Assembly: GCA_002726235.1 (NCBI GenBank)
Contig: PBSN01000008.1
Location: 572,635 to 636,634, forward strand
Source of the DNA: Nitrospiraceae bacterium
Lineage (GTDB): Bacteria > Nitrospirota > Nitrospiria > Nitrospirales > UBA2166
DNA length: 64,000 nt
Direction: 5' to 3'
Below the pieces are notes generated by a model that saw nothing but the letters and a program-made list of their open reading frames with translations, was not told where the DNA came from and did no database searches. Both the position numbers and the translations under genes were made by a program. This document shows, in pieces, positions 47,521 through 57,978 of the stretch. Within the stretch, counting starts at the first letter, position 1. Each line of letters starts with the position of its first letter.

Positions 47521-48699
47521 ATGTTTACACAGTCCCTGACCAATCTTCAGGAAGCCTATCTGCTCCGAACACTCCACCGAACTGAGTCTGCCCAGGATGC
47601 TGAGATCACCATCAAAGGAAAGACTATCATCCTATTCTCATCCAACAACTATCTTGGCCTCGCTAATCATCGAAAACTTAAAGAAGCCGCCATTACCGCC
47701 ATTAAACAGTACGGATTTGGTTCCGGGGCGTCGCGATTGCTTTCTGGAACCATGAGTCTACACGAACAACTTGAAGCTCGCCTCGCATCCTTTGCAAAAA
47801 CAGCCGCTGCTCTCACGTTTAACTCAGGATATCATGCGAACCTCGGTCTAATTCAAACGTTGGTCGAAGAACTCCAACCACATTGTCTCGTACTTGCAGA
47901 CCGTGCATGCCATGCAAGTCTCATCGATGCTATTCGGCTTACAAAAGCCCGCCTCAAAGTGTACCAACACCAGAACACCGAACAACTTGAACGGCTTCTC
48001 TCAACACATGCCGTAACCGAAGCCAGAAACAGTCTTGTCGTCACCGAAGGAGTCTTCAGTATGGATGGAGATATCACTCCGCTACCGAAACTACTCACAT
48101 GTATCGAGAAATCCTCAGCGATGTTGCTCGTTGATGATGCTCATGGAATTGGCGTTATGGGATCCACTGGACGTGGGACTATCGAACACTTTGATCTTGA
48201 AACAAAGATTCCTATTCGCATGGGAACACTCGGCAAAGCACTAGGATGCGTGGGAGCCTTCGTAGCTGGACCGCATGATCTCATACAGCTCCTCATCAAC
48301 CGTGCCCGGTCATTCATCTACACAACCGCTCCACCTCCAGCCTTTGCGGCAGCCGCACTTGCTGCCTTAACGATTCTAGAAACTGAGCCAGAACGCAGGG
48401 AAAAATTATGGTGGAACCGAGATTACATGCTCTCAAATCTAAAATCCCTTGGATACAACACCATGCACACCGAAAGCCCAATTCTCCCAGTACTGATTGG
48501 TGATCCCTCACGTACACTTCAATTCTCACAGCGACTCTTTGCACGCGGCATCTATGCCCCAGCCATTCGTCCACCAACAGTCCCTCGGGGAACAAGCCGG
48601 CTACGGATAAGTATGATGGCAACCCACCAACAATCCCAGCTGGATTATGCCTTAGACGTCTTTAGAGACGTGGGTCGGTCGTTAGGAATTATTGCTTGA
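47521..48699 (+). CDS. bioF: 8-amino-7-oxononanoate synthase
   Basis: PLP-dependent alpha-oxoamine synthase of 392 residues that condenses pimeloyl-ACP/CoA with alanine for biotin synthesis. It shows FSSNNYLGLANHRKL, GSGASRLLSGTMSLHEQLE, DRACHASLIDAI (His over the PLP ring), LLVDDAHGIGVMG, the PLP lysine in MGTLGKALGCVGAF and the C-terminal AIRPPTVPRGTSRLRIS with both conserved arginines. It is alone, without bioA/B/D. A paralogous synthase of the serine palmitoyltransferase type is at 51487-52662; birA lies at 57232. Confidence 0.9.
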   Translation: MFTQSLTNLQEAYLLRTLHRTESAQDAEITIKGKTIILFSSNNYLGLANHRKLKEAAITAIKQYGFGSGASRLLSGTMSLHEQLEARLASFAKTAAALTFNSGYHANLGLIQTLVEELQPHCLVLADRACHASLIDAIRLTKARLKVYQHQNTEQLERLLSTHAVTEARNSLVVTEGVFSMDGDITPLPKLLTCIEKSSAMLLVDDAHGIGVMGSTGRGTIEHFDLETKIPIRMGTLGKALGCVGAFVAGPHDLIQLLINRARSFIYTTAPPPAFAAAALAALTILETEPERREKLWWNRDYMLSNLKSLGYNTMHTESPILPVLIGDPSRTLQFSQRLFARGIYAPAIRPPTVPRGTSRLRISMMATHQQSQLDYALDVFRDVGRSLGIIA

Positions 48700-49552
48700 C
48701 GGAAAAGTTTACGACTGGATCGAATATCGTGGGAGGGGAAATATGAGGTCCCATGCTAAATTCAGCAATTCTAAATTCCTCTAATTCCTCAGTGACCACT
48801 GTGGTATGCATGGTGACACCGCCTATCACCGGCATATTAACCGTTTCAATAGATTTAATCAGACCAACATGAGGAGCAAACCAACTGATCAACTTATCCT
48901 TCGTTACAATAACCTCACCATTCGATGACATTGTAACGGTCAGTTCCATCTTCCCGTTCAGCCTTAGTACATTCTGAAACGTCCCCGCTAACACCGAAAG
49001 GGTTTCCAACGACCCAACGGTTATTTCGGCAAACGCATCAACATGCTCGTTAATACCATCTCCATCTATGTCTTGAAACAAGTCACCATCTTTTAAGTTG
49101 AATTGTCGAAGGGTTTGTTGTTCAAGCAACGGAAATCTGACCACCGGATACGGGGTAAGTTGTTGTTCAAATAAATCATGAGGATGACTGCCATGATATA
49201 TCACACCCTCATCCCCAACATGATAGTAGCTTTCCCTCTCACCCCTATTGCTAGGATTGGTTTCGATAAAAACAATCACACGCTGACCATCCTTCTGCAT
49301 CGTCTTGACCGCAGTTGCGCTGTTCATGTAAACGGCAATATTGGTAGCGGTGAGTTGTACTTCCCTCTTATGTTCTGTTCCCTGATAATGCCACACGCTT
49401 CCAATTGGAGCAGAAAAATATGACTCTGGGTTGGCAATAGGAGTTGGAGCCGTTGGGATCGGCACAAACCCGACATTGAACATGCCACACACCACTACCA
49501 CTAGGCTATCCAGCATGCGGAACCTGACTTTCATTAGCTCCATCAACAACAT
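48689..49552 (-). CDS. Exported protein of unknown function
   Basis: A 287-residue protein with an N-terminal hydrophobic signal or anchor (MLDSLVVVVCGMFNVGFV), then a beta-rich region: YFSAPIGSVWHYQGTEHKRE, YYHVGDEGVIYHGSHPHDLF, and GSLETLSVLAGTFQNVLRLN with WFAPHVGLIKSI. The last segments resemble the generic pattern of lipoprotein-like proteins that carry 'sVpAGtFk.v....w...GvGlvk'. No specific family is assigned. Its 3' end overlaps the bioF 3' end by 11 nt on the opposite strand. Confidence 0.65.
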   Translation of the reverse strand: MLLMELMKVRFRMLDSLVVVVCGMFNVGFVPIPTAPTPIANPESYFSAPIGSVWHYQGTEHKREVQLTATNIAVYMNSATAVKTMQKDGQRVIVFIETNPSNRGERESYYHVGDEGVIYHGSHPHDLFEQQLTPYPVVRFPLLEQQTLRQFNLKDGDLFQDIDGDGINEHVDAFAEITVGSLETLSVLAGTFQNVLRLNGKMELTVTMSSNGEVIVTKDKLISWFAPHVGLIKSIETVNMPVIGGVTMHTTVVTEELEEFRIAEFSMGPHISPPTIFDPVVNFSVKQ

Positions 49553-50082: not shown

Positions 50083-51474
50083 TTGAGACACCTTAAACTA
50101 CATCGCTGGTTTACAACAGGCCCACTCCAGCTAATCTTCAAGAACGCTGGAATCCTGCTCAGTGGAAGATCAGTCGCGGGATTATGCAACCTCGGTTCTC
50201 TCGCCCTCGCAGCGCGTACTCTTGGCCCTGAGGTTTTTGGCACCCTCGTTCTCATCCATACTGTCATTCGGTTGATCACAGGCATTGCAAAATTCCAGTC
50301 TTGGCAGGCTGTCATCCGGTACGGAGCAGTAAGTCTACAGGCCAAGAAACATCAGGATTTTCATAGGCTGATTATCTTCACAGTACTGCTCGATGCGGCA
50401 AGCGCACTGCTCGGAGCAATGATAGCAATCCTTGCAGCACCACTTATTGCGCCATATCTCGGATGGAGTTATGACGTGACATCCATGGCAATGCTTTACG
50501 GCACTGTCATTCTGTTCAGCATCACTGCCACACCAACAGGAATTCTTCGTCTCTTTAACCGCTTCGACCTTCTGTCGATCCACGCAATCATCTCACCAGG
50601 AATCCGCTTAATCGGGGGAAGCATTCTCTACTTTTACAGTGTCGGTTTATGGGGATTCTTATCCATATGGTTCATCGCGAGTGTTGTCAGCGGAATCACA
50701 CTTGTCGTCATGGGCTGGTGGGAACTACGCAAGCGTGAACTTATCCCTCCGAGAAGTCTTTCCTTCCATAACCTCACTCAACCGCACTCCGGACTGTGGC
50801 GATTCGTCTTTGCAACGAATATCCAAAGTTCATTGGATCTTACGACCGGACATCTCACGACATTGATGGTCGGCTGGGTCCTTGGACCAACTGCTGCTGG
50901 GCTGTTCAGAATTGCGAAGGAACTGTCTACCGTGCTCTCCAGAGCCGGCGGACTCTTGGCGGAATCAACGTATCCAGAGTTGGCAAAGCTATCCACTCAA
51001 AAGCAAAACAAGACTTTCCGGCGCGTGGTCTTTCGGTCCGGACTTGTCGCAGGAAGCGGTGCAACCATGATTTTTTTCAGCATGATCCTTCTTGGCGAAC
51101 TGCTTCTCCGATTGACCGTAGGAATTGAATTTGTTGCTGCCTATCCACTCCTTCTTCTCCTCATCTTTGCCGAAACAATTGGAGCATTTGGATTTGGCCT
51201 CAATTCAGCTATGTATGCTATTGGCCGTCCTGGCATTCCATTGAAGGTCAATATCACCACAACCGCACTCTACCTTCCTTTACTTTTCTTTTTGGTGACA
51301 CAGGTGAACATAATCGGCGCTGGAATTGCTTTCATCGTATTTCTAGCAGCGAGATTCGTCGCAATGGCAACGATCACGACACGGCTTCTTTCTCGAGTCG
51401 ATACAACGCCACCCGTAAATACCCAAGGCTCCGCCACATTGCATGACTCCACGCCAACTGGCAAAGGGATGTGA
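50083..51474 (+). CDS. Oligosaccharide/lipid-linked sugar flippase (MOP superfamily, Wzx-like)
   Basis: A 463-residue, about 12-helix integral membrane protein of the polysaccharide-transporter branch of the MOP exporters. It has NAGILLSGRSVAGLCNLGSL then ALAARTLGPEVFGTLVLIHT at the start, and the second half starts IQSSLDLTTGHLTTLMVGWV then LGPTAAGLFRIAKELSTVLS. It probably flips lipid-linked glycans for surface polysaccharide or glycolipid. The start is a TTG at 50083 without an obvious ribosome-binding site, so a later start is possible. It converges on the serine-palmitoyltransferase-like gene (12 nt apart). Confidence 0.82.
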   Translation: MRHLKLHRWFTTGPLQLIFKNAGILLSGRSVAGLCNLGSLALAARTLGPEVFGTLVLIHTVIRLITGIAKFQSWQAVIRYGAVSLQAKKHQDFHRLIIFTVLLDAASALLGAMIAILAAPLIAPYLGWSYDVTSMAMLYGTVILFSITATPTGILRLFNRFDLLSIHAIISPGIRLIGGSILYFYSVGLWGFLSIWFIASVVSGITLVVMGWWELRKRELIPPRSLSFHNLTQPHSGLWRFVFATNIQSSLDLTTGHLTTLMVGWVLGPTAAGLFRIAKELSTVLSRAGGLLAESTYPELAKLSTQKQNKTFRRVVFRSGLVAGSGATMIFFSMILLGELLLRLTVGIEFVAAYPLLLLLIFAETIGAFGFGLNSAMYAIGRPGIPLKVNITTTALYLPLLFFLVTQVNIIGAGIAFIVFLAARFVAMATITTRLLSRVDTTPPVNTQGSATLHDSTPTGKGM

Positions 51475-51486
51475 TGGTGGAAATTG

Positions 51487-52662
51487 TTAACTAAAGGACA
51501 AGAAGGCTTGGCAAATCTTTTCGATCTGCTCGTCGGTGTGACCTGCACTTACACTACAACGCAACAAACACCCTCCATTTGGTGCGGCCGGAGGCAAAAC
51601 CAGATTCACATACACACCGTGTTCCATCAGTTGACTCCATAACCCAATCCCTCGCTCTTTCGTTTCCACCAGTGCAGCGATGACCGGACTAGGCTCCGGA
51701 CCCAAGGTAAACCCCATATCCTGTAAGCTCTCATAGAGACATGTCGCATTTTCCCAGAGCCTCTGACGCAATTCTGGATGTGTCTCGATAATCCGAAGAG
51801 CGGCGCGTGTTGAGGCAACGACGGAAGGGGAAGGCGACGCTGTAAAAATGTAGGGACGGCTTGCATACCGTATCATCTCTACTTCAGGATGTCTGCTTAC
51901 ACAAAACCCCCCAGTGGCGCCGAGACTTTTGCTGAATGTTCCCACGATCAAGTCCACGCTTTCCTCAACACCAGCCTCTTCAGCAAGCCCTCGACCATTC
52001 TTTCCAAGGACCCCAAGAGAATGAGCTTCATCAACCACAAGAAACGCCTGATATTTCGTCCTGATGGCTGCAATATCCTTAAGAGGAGCACGGTCGCCGA
52101 GCATGCTGTAAATACCCTCAACAATAATCAACACGCGTGAGGCGCGATCACCAAGCCTCCGCAAGCGCTTCTCTAGATCACTGGCATCGTTGTGTCGGAA
52201 TCGAATAACCTCGGCATCGCCCATACGACACCCATCGTAAATACTGGCATGACAGTCCGCATCGAGAAGAATGACATCATCTGACCCAGCCAAGGTTGAA
52301 AGCAGTCCAATGTTGGCGAGATAGCCTGTCGAAAATACAATTGCCGACCCAACGTTAAAGAAGTCTGCAAGTTCCCTCTCTAACGCAATATGACCCGCAA
52401 AGGTTCCATTGGCCATCCTTGACCCTGTGGTACCCGTACCCTGTTCCTCCAACACTATACGTGCTGCGGCAATACAGTCGGGATGAAACGTCAGCCCAAG
52501 ATAATTATTGGTGCCTGCAAGAATCGTTCGACGCCCATTCACTATCGCTTCAGTGGAAGAAATCACTTGATCGATGACGACATTGAAGGGATCTCTCTCC
52601 CCTTCCCCAAGAAGGCTTTTCCGGGCCTCCGCAAGTTGCTGAAACTTATCAAAAATGGGCAT
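51487..52662 (-). CDS. Serine palmitoyltransferase-like alpha-oxoamine synthase
   Basis: A 391-residue PLP enzyme, 5'-most product of a probable sphingoid pathway. It matches bacterial serine palmitoyltransferase segment by segment: LAGTNNYLGLTFHPD (50-62), GTGTTGSRMANGTFAGH, LDADCHASIYDGCRMGDAEV (His138), VVDEAHSLGVLGKNGRG (Asp211, His214), GTFSKSLGATGGFCVS (Lys245, PLP Schiff base), RPYIFTASPSPSVVAS and SAGHTDEQI. The position of Sphingomonas Arg378, which helps place the substrate carboxylate, is Leu356 (VLPPAAP), while the Arg390 equivalent is present (LLRCS, Arg368). The acyl donor is probably acyl-ACP from the adjacent carrier. Amino acid choice (serine, or cysteate as in sulfonolipids) is not fixed by sequence. 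Overlaps the acp stop by 1 nt (TAATG). Confidence 0.85.
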   Translation of the reverse strand: MPIFDKFQQLAEARKSLLGEGERDPFNVVIDQVISSTEAIVNGRRTILAGTNNYLGLTFHPDCIAAARIVLEEQGTGTTGSRMANGTFAGHIALERELADFFNVGSAIVFSTGYLANIGLLSTLAGSDDVILLDADCHASIYDGCRMGDAEVIRFRHNDASDLEKRLRRLGDRASRVLIIVEGIYSMLGDRAPLKDIAAIRTKYQAFLVVDEAHSLGVLGKNGRGLAEEAGVEESVDLIVGTFSKSLGATGGFCVSRHPEVEMIRYASRPYIFTASPSPSVVASTRAALRIIETHPELRQRLWENATCLYESLQDMGFTLGPEPSPVIAALVETKERGIGLWSQLMEHGVYVNLVLPPAAPNGGCLLRCSVSAGHTDEQIEKICQAFLSFS

Positions 52663-52910
52663 TATGATTGACGCGTAAGATGTTCAAGTTGCAACACAAA
52701 ATCTTTGATGGTTCGAACATCTGGAATAATATTCAGCGGGATCGAGATATCAAAACGATCCTCAACCTCAAGTAAAATCTGCATTACTTGTAATGAATCC
52801 AAGCCGATATCGGAAACCAACTCTGTCCCCTCGTCAAGTATGAGGTTATTGTTCGCATAGGGTGCCAAAATCGCGCACAGCTCAATCAAAATGTCGTCGT
52901 AGCTTTTCAT
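52662..52910 (-). CDS. Dedicated acyl carrier protein
   Basis: An 82-residue acidic carrier. The phosphopantetheine site is Ser39 in VSDIGLDSLQVMQIL, followed by VEDRFDISIPLNII and a terminal VRTIKDFVLQL helix, as in AcpP-type proteins. It is too divergent from AcpP and too far from fab genes to be the housekeeping carrier. Sitting between the acyl-AMP ligase/reductase and the alpha-oxoamine synthase, it most likely ferries the acyl group loaded by the ligase to the synthase. Six bases separate it from the reductase stop, and it overlaps the synthase by 1 nt. Confidence 0.9.
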   Translation of the reverse strand: MKSYDDILIELCAILAPYANNNLILDEGTELVSDIGLDSLQVMQILLEVEDRFDISIPLNIIPDVRTIKDFVLQLEHLTRQS

Positions 52911-52915
52911 ACGTG

Positions 52916-53902
52916 TTACGAATCTAGCCGGTACGGAACTGTCGTATCTGATTGTGCTGAAGAATGCGCTTTACATCCCCAACCAAAAGTTTTTCGCAAC
53001 CCCTCATCAAGCGCAATTTTTGGGACCCATCCAATCGCATCACGAATAACCGCGTTATCACAGACCCAATTGTGATGCCGAAGCTCTCGAACCTTGCCTG
53101 GTGTAAACATCGGTGTGTAGCCCGTGAGACGCGATGCAGTGATGTTGCATAGGGCAACAAACCTCAACAATGATTCCGAAATTGAAAAACGAGCCACACG
53201 CCGTTGACAGATTCGCTCTACAGTATCGATGACATCATTCCAGCTATATCCGCCAGGATAGCCATCGTGGAATTCCACGACCCGAAGAGCGGAAAATGGA
53301 TTCTCTAGACACATCACCACGGCATCCGCAAGATCATCCACGTACAGCAATGAGAATCGTGCGTGATCATGACCAAGCTTCAGCGCAATACCTCTTCCCA
53401 TCCACTCGAACAGCGGGCGCAACTCACGATCACCCGGTCCGTATACCGCCGGAGGCCGTAGCACCATCCACTCCATATCCCTCGCCAGTAACGCAAGTTG
53501 TGCTTCCCCTTGCAACTTACTCGTCGCATACGGAGACAGCACGGGCTCACGAGCTGCCAAAGAAGACATCAGCAAGAAACGTGGAACCCTGGTTTGGTCA
53601 CAAGAAGCTTGTAGGACGTTTTCGACACCATGGACATTCACGGACTCGAAATCGGCCAAAGAAGCTCCACGAACAAGCCCGGCGCAGTGTACCACATCAT
53701 CCACGCCTTCAACGAGGCGGCGGAGACTTCCAAAATCTGACAGATCTCCTTCAACAAACTGGATTGGAATGGTAGCAAGATTGGCTGTCCGGGACGATGC
53801 ACGCACAAGCGCACGAACAACCCAGCCCGCAGCATGAAACCTGTGTGCTAATACATTGCCGATAAATCCCGTTGCCCCAGTTAAGGCAACTATCCTGGAC
53901 AT
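52916..53902 (-). CDS. NAD(P)-dependent SDR/epimerase-family reductase, CerR-like
   Basis: A 328-residue extended/atypical SDR: the nucleotide motif is IVALTGATGFIGNVLAHRF at residues 4-22, DDVVHCAGLV near 67, catalytic Tyr-Lys in SPYATSKLQGE near 124, RPPAVYGPGDREL near 150, and YVDDLADAVVMCLE near 190. In the Caulobacter sphingolipid locus an epimerase-family reductase (CerR) reduces the 3-keto group of the sphingoid or ceramide; the same role is inferred here from family and neighbours. Sugar-nucleotide epimerisation is a less likely alternative. It is 215 nt downstream of the acyl-AMP ligase, with a palindromic element between. Confidence 0.8.
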   Translation of the reverse strand: MSRIVALTGATGFIGNVLAHRFHAAGWVVRALVRASSRTANLATIPIQFVEGDLSDFGSLRRLVEGVDDVVHCAGLVRGASLADFESVNVHGVENVLQASCDQTRVPRFLLMSSLAAREPVLSPYATSKLQGEAQLALLARDMEWMVLRPPAVYGPGDRELRPLFEWMGRGIALKLGHDHARFSLLYVDDLADAVVMCLENPFSALRVVEFHDGYPGGYSWNDVIDTVERICQRRVARFSISESLLRFVALCNITASRLTGYTPMFTPGKVRELRHHNWVCDNAVIRDAIGWVPKIALDEGLRKTFGWGCKAHSSAQSDTTVPYRLDS

Positions 53903-53985
53903 GGAAAGAGCCTAGTAAAGCATCGGACAATCTGATTATTTTGTTTGAAAAGGCATTGGTGCAGCACAGTTGGCAGAACAGCCCA

Positions 53986-54110
53986 CAGGATGTTCACAAG
54001 GGCTTCCAAATGCGGCTACAGAAAGCGAACGATCGAGAAAGAAGTGCACACGTTGAGATTCTGAACGATGCAAGAACAACGCGAAAGATCAGGTTTTTCT
54101 CAGCATCCTG
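53986..54110. repeat. Palindromic intergenic element inside the lipid locus
   Basis: CAGGATGTTCAC at 53986-53997 is mirrored by CTCAGCATCCTG at 54099-54110 (reverse complement CAGGATGCTGAG). An A-rich GAAAAA box lies just inside the right end. It fills most of the 215-nt gap between the acyl-AMP ligase and the reductase, so it may separate them into two transcripts or act as a processing site. Confidence 0.5.
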
Positions 54111-54117
54111 CTAGCGG

Positions 54118-55920
54118 TCACCCCGTAGCGCCACATTCACGTGCTAATTCTGAAGAGGCATGTTTTGACTCGTTCGAGAAAAGCTGACCTCGGCGCTGAA
54201 GAAAGTCCTGCCGAGTCCGCGAGCGAGAAAGTTTACCCGATGACGTACGAGGCAATGTGTGAGGACGGGCTAATTCAATAAAGCAGTTGATCCCAAGTTC
54301 CTCGCGGATCATACGCTGCAACCGATCAATGAGATTTCCTCCTTGGATGCCGGTGAACTCACCGCATTGAACCACCATCATAGCCAACTCCTCACCATCC
54401 ACACCTGAAACGGAAAATGCAGACGCGTCTCCAGGTCTGACTTCAGGTTGCTGTTCCGCCAAATATTCAAGATCCTGAGGCCAAATATTTCGCCCGTTGA
54501 TGATAATGAGGTCCTTGATCCGGCCCGTGATGAAGAGATGTCCCTTGACACGATACCCAACATCTCCTGTATTCAGCCACCCATCAGGCGATAGAACCTC
54601 TTGTGTGGCATCCGCGTCCCCACAGTAACTCGTCATAATACTCGGTCCACGGAGAAAAATCGTTCCGCATTCTCTATCGCCTAATTCACGGCCCTCTTCA
54701 TTGCGAATTTGAATTTCGTACTCCGGCAGGGGCTTTCCACAATTCACGAAACTACTTACACCTGACCGATTTCCATCTCCAGTTCCATTGGGCGCGACTC
54801 GTGCCACCTGTCGCTCAGAGAGATAATCTCTATCAACACGATCGATCTCAAGACCTTGAAACACCGGAGCAAAGCTTACGGCGAGAGAACATTCAGCCAT
54901 GCCATAACATGCCATAAACGCGTTAGCATTGAATCCAGTCCCGTTAAGAGCCTTCGCAAAATTCGCTAATGATTCATGGCGAATCATTTCCGCGCCAGCG
55001 CCAGCAACTCGCCAACTTCGAAGATCAAGTGCCGTAGCATCTTCTTGCCGAAAACGACGCGTGCAGAGGTCATATCCAAATGTCGGACTAAAGGAAATCG
55101 TGGCGGAATTCTTCGCAATTAGGGAAAGCCATTGTCGCGGGCGCATCGCAAAATCTCGTGGACTGAGGTAATCAGTAGAAAGCTGAGAAGCAACTGGACC
55201 AAGCACAAACCCCACGAGGCCCATGTCGTGATAGAACGGAAGCCAGGAAACGCAACGATCAAAAGATCGGACGGCGAGGCCGTGTTTTATGATACCAGAG
55301 AGGTTATTTAACACCGCCTGTTGGGTAATCATCACACCTCGAGGAAAGCGCGTACTCCCAGATGTATACTGGAGGTAGGCAACCTCGTCTGACCCAAGTG
55401 GGCTCAACGCGTTCGTGCCTTCGGAAAGTGCTCCAAAATCCTCTGGGCTACCGACAAATCGAAGATCCAATCCTTCAGAAGCCTCTGTAAGAAATGGCAG
55501 AAAAGCTAGAGGCGCCACTGCAACTGAGGCTTGGCAGATTACGAGCAAGGCCCGCAACTGTTCAACATACACAGATCGATTGGAGAGATGAATGAACGCC
55601 GGAAGCGGTACTGGCACCAAGCCTGCGTACTGGCAGGCAAAGAAAAACCGTATAAAATCAGGACTAGTATCCGCAAGAAGAGCAACTCGTGTCCCACGCG
55701 GAAGTCCCAGACCTTGAAGACGGCGCGCCAACGTTTGTGCCTGTTCGCGCAATTCCGCATAGGAAACCACAGTATAAAGCTCACCTTTGCCGGTATAAAA
55801 GTTACACCCGGTCACACCTCGTGCGGCGTAGTCCAGCGCTTCTGAAAGATTGTCGAATTCGCCTGGCCGAAGCGGCACTCTGTTCTCGGTTGGAGTTGGC
55901 TTCATTTCATTAACCCTCAC
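54118..55920 (-). CDS. Fatty acyl-AMP ligase (FAAL/acyl-activating enzyme)
   Basis: A 600-residue ANL-superfamily adenylating enzyme. The P-loop-like motif is YLQYTSGSTRFPRGVMITQQ near 190-208; others are WLPFYHDMGLVGFVLGP near 235, YGMAECSLAVSFAP near 345, WLNTGDVGYRVKGHLFITGR near 455 and the catalytic Lys region LPRTSSGKLSRSRTR near 565. The overall pattern is FAAL-like, loading an acyl-AMP onto a carrier protein and not onto CoA. It likely charges the ACP encoded two genes downstream. The start at 55920 or 55902 (MKPTPTEN) is preceded by a triple direct repeat. The 5' neighbour is coaX, 412 nt away. Confidence 0.85.
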   Translation of the reverse strand: MRVNEMKPTPTENRVPLRPGEFDNLSEALDYAARGVTGCNFYTGKGELYTVVSYAELREQAQTLARRLQGLGLPRGTRVALLADTSPDFIRFFFACQYAGLVPVPLPAFIHLSNRSVYVEQLRALLVICQASVAVAPLAFLPFLTEASEGLDLRFVGSPEDFGALSEGTNALSPLGSDEVAYLQYTSGSTRFPRGVMITQQAVLNNLSGIIKHGLAVRSFDRCVSWLPFYHDMGLVGFVLGPVASQLSTDYLSPRDFAMRPRQWLSLIAKNSATISFSPTFGYDLCTRRFRQEDATALDLRSWRVAGAGAEMIRHESLANFAKALNGTGFNANAFMACYGMAECSLAVSFAPVFQGLEIDRVDRDYLSERQVARVAPNGTGDGNRSGVSSFVNCGKPLPEYEIQIRNEEGRELGDRECGTIFLRGPSIMTSYCGDADATQEVLSPDGWLNTGDVGYRVKGHLFITGRIKDLIIINGRNIWPQDLEYLAEQQPEVRPGDASAFSVSGVDGEELAMMVVQCGEFTGIQGGNLIDRLQRMIREELGINCFIELARPHTLPRTSSGKLSRSRTRQDFLQRRGQLFSNESKHASSELARECGATG

Positions 55921-57231: not shown

Positions 57232-57978
57232 CTACCTCAGGTGTACTATATCCGCACTGCGAATGATCGCCATGTCCCCTTGACCACGTCGCAGTCGTAA
57301 CGATCCGTCCAATTCAATACCATCTGCCCAACCATCGACAGGCCCCCCAACGGGAAGATATGCAATAACTCTACGACCGATGGTATCAGAAATACTGAGA
57401 TATTCATGGATAATATCTGACATACCATCATTCCAGAACTTCTGATACTGCACGTTAAGCTCACCACTCAATCTTGTGAGGAACTGGTTGCGATCGATCG
57501 ACTCAGCAACATGCTCCGACAGCGACGTCGTCGTGCAGTAAAGAGAGGATGGCAACGACGCCTTGGACATATTGACGTTCACACCAATACCCAGAATAAC
57601 GCTTTGAATCTCGCCATTATTGGATACAGTTTCCGCTAAAACTCCAGCCACCTTTTGTCTCCCAATTAATACATCATTGGGCCACTTAATCCGCGCGTTT
57701 AGTTTGGTTTTGGTTTGTATCGCGGATGCGATAGCCATAGAAGCGATCAATGGGATCCATGAGATCCATTCTCGATTTCCCGCCCGCAAGATGTACGAAC
57801 AATACAGGTTAACGCCAGACGGCGAGATCCACTCTCGACCAAGTCGCCCCCGTCCCCGTGTTTGTGCATCGGCAACTACCAGTGTTCCTTCCGAGGCTCC
57901 CTCATGGTAAAGGTCAAGAGCAACCGCATTTGTCGACGTCACCTCTTCAAAGCGATGGATTGGTTGTCCTAGTACCAT
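57232..57978 (-). CDS. birA: Biotin-protein ligase, catalytic form without DNA-binding domain
   Basis: A 248-residue enzyme that attaches biotin to carrier proteins such as the acetyl-CoA carboxylase subunit. Signatures are FEEVTSTNAVALDLY at the start, the biotinyl-AMP loop TRGRGRLGREWISPSGVNLY near 40-59, KLNARIKWPNDVLIGRQKVA near 92-112, and VILGIGVNVNMSKA. There is no N-terminal helix-turn-helix, so it should not act as a biotin repressor. It lies 28 nt after nadC. Confidence 0.94.
   Translation of the reverse strand: MVLGQPIHRFEEVTSTNAVALDLYHEGASEGTLVVADAQTRGRGRLGREWISPSGVNLYCSYILRAGNREWISWIPLIASMAIASAIQTKTKLNARIKWPNDVLIGRQKVAGVLAETVSNNGEIQSVILGIGVNVNMSKASLPSSLYCTTTSLSEHVAESIDRNQFLTRLSGELNVQYQKFWNDGMSDIIHEYLSISDTIGRRVIAYLPVGGPVDGWADGIELDGSLRLRRGQGDMAIIRSADIVHLR

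Follow-up and report, generated by a model that had tools for sequence, protein, structure and literature searches.

Sphingolipids are fatty membrane molecules known mainly from animals and plants. In a 64,000-nucleotide stretch of the genome of a Nitrospiraceae bacterium (assembly GCA_002726235.1, contig PBSN01000008.1, positions 572,635 to 636,634; hereafter the window), we identified an aasR-cerR-acpR-spt operon that, with a probability of roughly 0.83, encodes the first steps of a complete ceramide pathway of the Caulobacter/Escherichia coli BL21 type, probably extended to ceramide phosphoglycerate (CPG). The comparative data are best read as showing that a part of the Nitrospirales has conserved this pathway. 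The presence and order of the genes, their orthology or family membership, their conserved catalytic residues and their co-occurrence were observed directly. The host is a small-genome member of the Nitrospirales, related to the nitrite oxidiser Nitrospira, and its nearest named relative, as judged by an 86% identical serine palmitoyltransferase (SPT), is Nitrospiraceae bacterium UBA2166, in agreement with the first-pass annotation of the window, which had proposed a host probably within Nitrospirota. Evidence from the host's own genome was obtained by searches and from individual stretches of contigs, including C8 (670 kb, which carries the window operon) and C16, and the comparison sets comprised the four genomes of the genus (the host, G001, G002 and G003), 236 Nitrospirales genomes and 396 Nitrospirota genomes.

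The synthase gene, spt (51487-52662, minus strand), encodes a 391-amino-acid protein of the α-oxoamine synthase (AOS) family with K246 as the pyridoxal phosphate lysine. The protein matched the serine palmitoyltransferase equivalog NF047599 with 620.9 bits (cut-off 500), while its scores remained under the cut-offs of the bioF and KBL (glycine C-acetyltransferase) models. Its closest solved structures were the Sphingomonas SPTs (456 bits), with which the active-site residues H138, the Asp of DEAH, K246 and R368 align, and it was 58% identical to the SPT of E. coli BL21. In a maximum likelihood tree of 41 rows, none of them a cysteate-C-fatty acyltransferase (CFAT), it was placed in a 25-row clade (support 100/100) with the SPTs of S. 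wittichii, S. paucimobilis and E. coli BL21, the nearest rows being those of its own genus, while E. coli BioF, E. coli KBL and the BioF encoded in the window (47521-48699) fell outside. The latter is a separate protein, which scored 458.7 bits against the bioF cut-off of 426.45. The SPTs of Nitrospirales and Desulfobacterota grouped loosely (84/85), and the rows of Streptomyces, Bacteroides ovatus and Aureibacter had very long branches, their positions being meaningless. Model matches and tree support the identification of the synthase as a serine palmitoyltransferase, and not a BioF or KBL, as had been proposed from the sequence alone; clustering with BioF or KBL, the result that would have refuted this proposal, was not observed.

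The other three genes assigned to the locus at first pass were likewise confirmed as open reading frames (ORFs) on the minus strand. Directly upstream of spt lies acpR (52662-52910, 82 amino acids), a dedicated acyl carrier protein (ACP) with a DSL phosphopantetheine site, and base 52662 is common to both genes, giving the 1-nt overlap noted at first pass. AcpR matched PF00550, scored under every housekeeping-ACP cut-off and resembled E. coli AcpR most closely around the DSL motif (59% identity over 39 residues in the best local alignment). The cerR (epi) gene (52916-53902, 328 amino acids) encodes an extended short-chain dehydrogenase/reductase, the predicted 3-oxo-ceramide or 3-oxo-sphinganine reductase; the protein matched PF01370, carries GxxGxxG and YxxxK motifs, and is 41% identical to Epi of E. 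coli BL21. Many of its matches among solved structures were NDUFA9 (complex I 39-kDa) subunits, a likeness that has also been described for CerR (PMC11087976). Close by, aasR (54118-55920, 600 amino acids, starting at GTG or at an ATG at 55905) encodes a fatty acyl-AMP ligase/acyl-AcpR synthetase, which scored 764.8 bits against the fatty acyl-AMP ligase model NF006624 (cut-off 600) and was 48% identical over 557 amino acids to the ligase of the E. coli BL21 sphingolipid locus; in Caulobacter and E. coli the corresponding enzyme is the AasR described in PMC9386255. Judged by this model match, it fits a predicted role of AasR in loading its own AcpR and not CoA.

Padilla-Gomez et al. reported that the Caulobacter AasR loads a dedicated AcpR, that acyl-AcpR is the preferred substrate of SPTs from Caulobacter, E. 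coli B and S. wittichii, and that the order aasR-epi-acpR-spt occurs in Caulobacter (CC_1165-1162), E. coli BL21 and Nitrosomonas eutropha (PMC9386255). The same order was repeated at every readable Nitrospirales spt locus and in Desulfobacterota metagenome-assembled genomes (MAGs), which rules out a chance grouping of genes. Contamination was also ruled out, since the operon is embedded in housekeeping genes (coaX, birA, nadC and valS, from reading the ORFs) and was found in all four genomes of the genus. Promoter and terminator patterns near the operon occurred at chance level only and hence were not used. The ACP-based sphingoid route suggested by the first-pass annotation was thus supported.

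That annotation had also noted the lack of a bacterial ceramide synthase (bCerS). This holds within the 64-kb window but not for the genome, in which an ortholog is located at C8:90711-92009, about 530 kb from the window operon on the same contig. It is an intact ORF without stops, 50% identical to E. coli YghO/CerS (E=8e-125), and each of the four genomes of the genus carries one such intact ortholog (49-51% identity, E about 1e-122 to 5e-126 with YghO as query). A search with PF04339 (FemAB_like) gave no match in the host or in any SPT-bearing Nitrospirales genome, a result that is uninformative on CerS (a false negative) because YghO/CerS itself matches no Pfam family. When the 396 genomes of the phylum were searched, all 13 Nitrospirales genomes with an SPT above the cut-off also had a bCerS at E<=1e-140. 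The sole Nitrospirales genome with such a bCerS and no SPT match was G256, a single contig in which spt is present as two overlapping reading frames (L122:2253-3483) and the remaining cluster is intact; the split may be either a sequencing error or a real break. The presence of bCerS in the genus and its co-occurrence with SPT make a free-base end product unlikely.

At E<=1e-30, a CerS homolog was observed in 162 of the 396 Nitrospirota genomes (Nitrospirales included), many of them outside Nitrospirales. Three mapped non-Nitrospirales loci (L125:4748-8105, L126:5353-8739 and L127:4195-7504) presented a triplet of cerR-like, AOS and cerS genes without acpR or aasR, the AOS falling outside the characterised SPT clade, and possibly represent a second, ACP-independent route to ceramide or deoxyceramide. 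A fatty acid hydroxylase gene (PF04116) adjoins CerS in G002, G003 and other Nitrospirales clusters (e.g. L097:7697-8440) and is absent from the host genome and G001; acyl-chain hydroxylation may therefore differ within the genus.

Genes of the types that build a phosphoglycerate head group were found at two further places, all as intact ORFs. Adjoining CerS are two nucleotidyltransferase genes, one on the minus strand (C8:89865-90707, PF12804) and one on the plus strand (C8:89222-89962, PF12804/PF00483), while a block at C16:127-6643 contains LptF2, LptG2, a metallophosphoesterase, a CDP-alcohol phosphatidyltransferase, a diacylglycerol kinase (DAGK)-type, CpgB-type kinase (C16:4618-5682, PF00781) and a Tam41-like protein. 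These are the same gene types as CC_1152, 1153, 1158, 1159, 1160 and 1161, which make ceramide phosphoglycerates in Caulobacter (PMC11324152); the counterparts of CpgA, CpgC, CC_1153 and CC_1158 (PF01066, PF09139, PF12804 and PF00149) were tentatively assigned by Pfam type and neighbourhood. The CpgD residues that contact CTP, Mg and glycerate have been published (PMC12275187, PMC13228409), and matching by spacing, without the Caulobacter sequence itself, gave a counterpart in the CpgD-like protein (246 amino acids) for all 11 (G12, R16, K26, N90, N110, G111, D112, M147, K161, S170 and W201, CpgD numbering). Counterparts of M147 and K161, which set the preference of CpgD for 2-phospho-D-glycerate, were present in all eight aligned proteins (the CpgD-like protein and seven homologs). 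The kinase carries GGDG and lacks CxxxCxxC, as does CpgB (PMC10331486), and the CDP-alcohol transferase has an intact catalytic motif, DTVDGKLAR-8-G-3-D-3-D. In other Nitrospirales families and in Desulfobacterota the sphingolipid genes are clustered, and in G002 a run over two contigs comprises genes for the kinase, CDP-alcohol transferase, phosphoesterase, LptG2, LptF2, CpgD-like protein, nucleotidyltransferase, CerS, fatty acid hydroxylase, HIT protein, AasR and CerR, followed by AcpR, SPT and the flippase.

The second LptF/LptG pair of the host (C16:127-2306) adjoins the kinase genes and is distinct from the canonical pair at C8:389040-391223. LpxC was found in all four genomes of the genus and, together with the canonical LptF/LptG, speaks for lipopolysaccharide (LPS), which by these genes is probably still made; the sphingolipid would thus accompany LPS and not replace it. 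The locus also includes a fifth gene, overlooked at first pass, which is convergent with spt and encodes a Wzx-type membrane protein of the oligosaccharide flippase family (50083-51474, plus strand, PF01943/PF13440). Its product resembles the proteins encoded immediately upstream of acpR-spt in Roseomonas marmotae (39% identity) and R. mucosa (about 36%), and also the flippase-like proteins in the sphingolipid loci of E. coli BL21 (30%) and Rahnella (29%). Among the 236 Nitrospirales genomes (E<=1e-25), the gene was found in only three of the four genomes of the genus, adjoining spt, and G003 lacks it at that position; several other clusters have an ABC exporter or an ELM1-family glycosyltransferase beside spt in its place. 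A Sinorhizobium relative (about 33%) has no sphingolipid gene neighbours, which shows that members of the family also occur outside such loci. Work on Caulobacter states that the sphingolipid flippase is not yet identified (PMC11087976), and by its neighbourhood the Wzx-type protein is a candidate for this function.

Every chemical step of the pathway that we propose is drawn by analogy with characterised relatives, and so are the sequence in which acylation and reduction occur, the nature of the head group and the transport. AasR would activate a free fatty acid with ATP and load it onto AcpR, and SPT would condense the acyl-AcpR with serine to give 3-oxo-sphinganine, which the distant bCerS would N-acylate before CerR reduces the ketone to yield dihydroceramide. 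The DAGK-type kinase would then form ceramide-1-phosphate and the CpgD-like cytidylyltransferase CDP-glycerate, with the CDP-alcohol transferase, the Tam41/CpgC-like protein, the phosphoesterase and the second nucleotidyltransferase taking part in phosphoglycerate transfer. The product would most likely be ceramide phosphoglycerate or di-phosphoglycerate (CPG2), and the second LptF/LptG and the Wzx-type protein beside spt may move this lipid across and out of the inner membrane.

Several observations weigh against this pathway. It is a prediction from sequence; the use of serine over alanine or glycine by SPT is not readable from sequence; AcpR is short and its likeness to E. coli AcpR is confined to the core; the CpgD residues match at offsets of -3 to -6, with small indels assumed; the head group was assigned by family type, gene order and residue matching, and not by direct comparison with the Caulobacter proteins; and the genes of the host are scattered over three places, unlike those of its relatives. 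The strongest competitor, which we consider unlikely, is that ceramide is made with a head group other than phosphoglycerate, or with alanine or glycine in place of serine, giving 1-deoxyceramides. The substrates of CDP-alcohol transferases and nucleotidyltransferases vary, other bacteria produce 1-deoxyceramides (PMC11334938), and a model match does not disclose the substrate choice of an SPT. Against a different head group, the gene types and their order equal those of the Caulobacter CPG2 genes, and the M147 and K161 counterparts are shared by every aligned CpgD homolog.

The first-pass annotation had named a free sphingoid base as a possible end product. This, or an incomplete pathway in the lineage, would fit the scattered genes and the window without an acyltransferase gene, but the bCerS ORFs of the genus and the other pathway genes are intact, and with the bCerS ortholog present and CPG-type genes at C8:89222-90707 and C16:127-6643 we regard such an outcome as very improbable. 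The same annotation had raised a sulfonolipid, which would make the synthase a CFAT. The two enzymes belong to one superfamily; nevertheless, the protein scored 197 bits to CFAT as compared with 456 to the Sphingomonas SPT, passed the SPT equivalog cut-off and has ceramide and CPG genes, not sulfonolipid genes, as neighbours, so that this proposal, judged by sequence score and gene neighbourhood, found no positive support and has next to no likelihood. Just as hard to credit is a BioF/KBL-type synthase in a secondary-metabolite or biotin operon. Although bioF lies 3 kb away and a BirA gene at 57232-57978, the synthase stayed under both family cut-offs, and the window BioF is a distinct protein that passes its own cut-off and lies outside the SPT clade. 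Ceramide synthesis, probably extended to ceramide phosphoglycerate, is thus the reading that we prefer.

One of the closest known systems is the ceramide locus of E. coli BL21(DE3), which consists of yghO, aasR, epi, acpR, spt, LptFG and a flippase-like protein. It shares with the host the aasR-cerR-acpR-spt order, the 1-nt acp/spt overlap, a CerS ortholog, a second LptF/G pair and a Wzx-type protein in the locus, whereas CerS and LptF2/G2 are elsewhere in the host genome and thymidylate-kinase-like genes in E. coli BL21 replace the kinase/CDP-alcohol transferase set of the host. Relative to the CC_1168-CC_1152 region of Caulobacter crescentus, the host has counterparts of aasR, cerR, acpR, spt and cerS, and counterparts by type of CC_1152, 1153, 1158, 1159, 1160 and 1161 and LptF2/G2 (PMC11324152), but it belongs to a different phylum, carries the genes in three places and has no PF04116 fatty acid hydroxylase. 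The clusters of R. marmotae, the source of the nearest flippase found (39%), and R. mucosa share with the host a flippase-acpR-spt run, the Tam41-like protein, the kinase, the CDP-alcohol transferase, the phosphoesterase, a HIT protein and LptF/G; in contrast to the host genes, they are plasmid-borne and contiguous, with an SPT only 53% identical. Other Nitrospirales families and Desulfobacterota MAGs have the same operon and most of the CPG genes, but contiguously. SPT clusters also occur on Pseudomonas and Klebsiella plasmids, two of which were typed as conjugative, namely pBYT5-2 (L060) and a K. michiganensis plasmid (L120), both with spt loci; on pBYT5-2 the sphingolipid cluster is whole and includes genes for a kinase, LptF/G, CerS and an ABC exporter. 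Conjugative plasmids are a plausible vehicle for the spread of spt clusters between phyla.

A gene lying between bioF and the flippase/spt genes (48689-49552, minus strand in the window) is conserved throughout the genus, in all four genomes; its 287-amino-acid product has a single hydrophobic stretch near the N-terminus and matched no family. Biotin genes flank both parts of the split set, with bioF (47521-48699) and the birA-like gene (57232-57978) around the window operon and a bioD-like gene (L096:6650-7357) immediately after the Tam41-like gene on C16, and may be a trace of an ancestral neighbourhood.

Among the papers searched, none dealt with sphingolipids or ceramide in Nitrospirota or with serine palmitoyltransferase in Nitrospira, as judged by titles and abstracts, which is not proof of absence; the pathway is of a known kind, in a lineage for which no published report was found. 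With this finding, a near-complete and experimentally characterised pathway of lipid synthesis, known from Proteobacteria, reaches the order to which the main nitrite oxidisers belong, and its detail suffices for a head-group prediction and for naming the lipid to be sought. A bolder reading, which we offer tentatively and at less than even odds, is that ceramide phosphoglycerates serve some of the Nitrospirales as another anionic lipid of the outer membrane next to LPS, exported by a dedicated Lpt pair, and, jointly, that the spt-adjoining Wzx-type protein acts as the sphingolipid flippase of the inner membrane. The Wzx-type gene provides a concrete candidate for the flippase step listed as unknown (PMC11087976). 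In Caulobacter, ceramide phosphoglycerate supports survival without LPS, and the Nitrospirales become a test of sphingolipids as a general second outer-membrane lipid.

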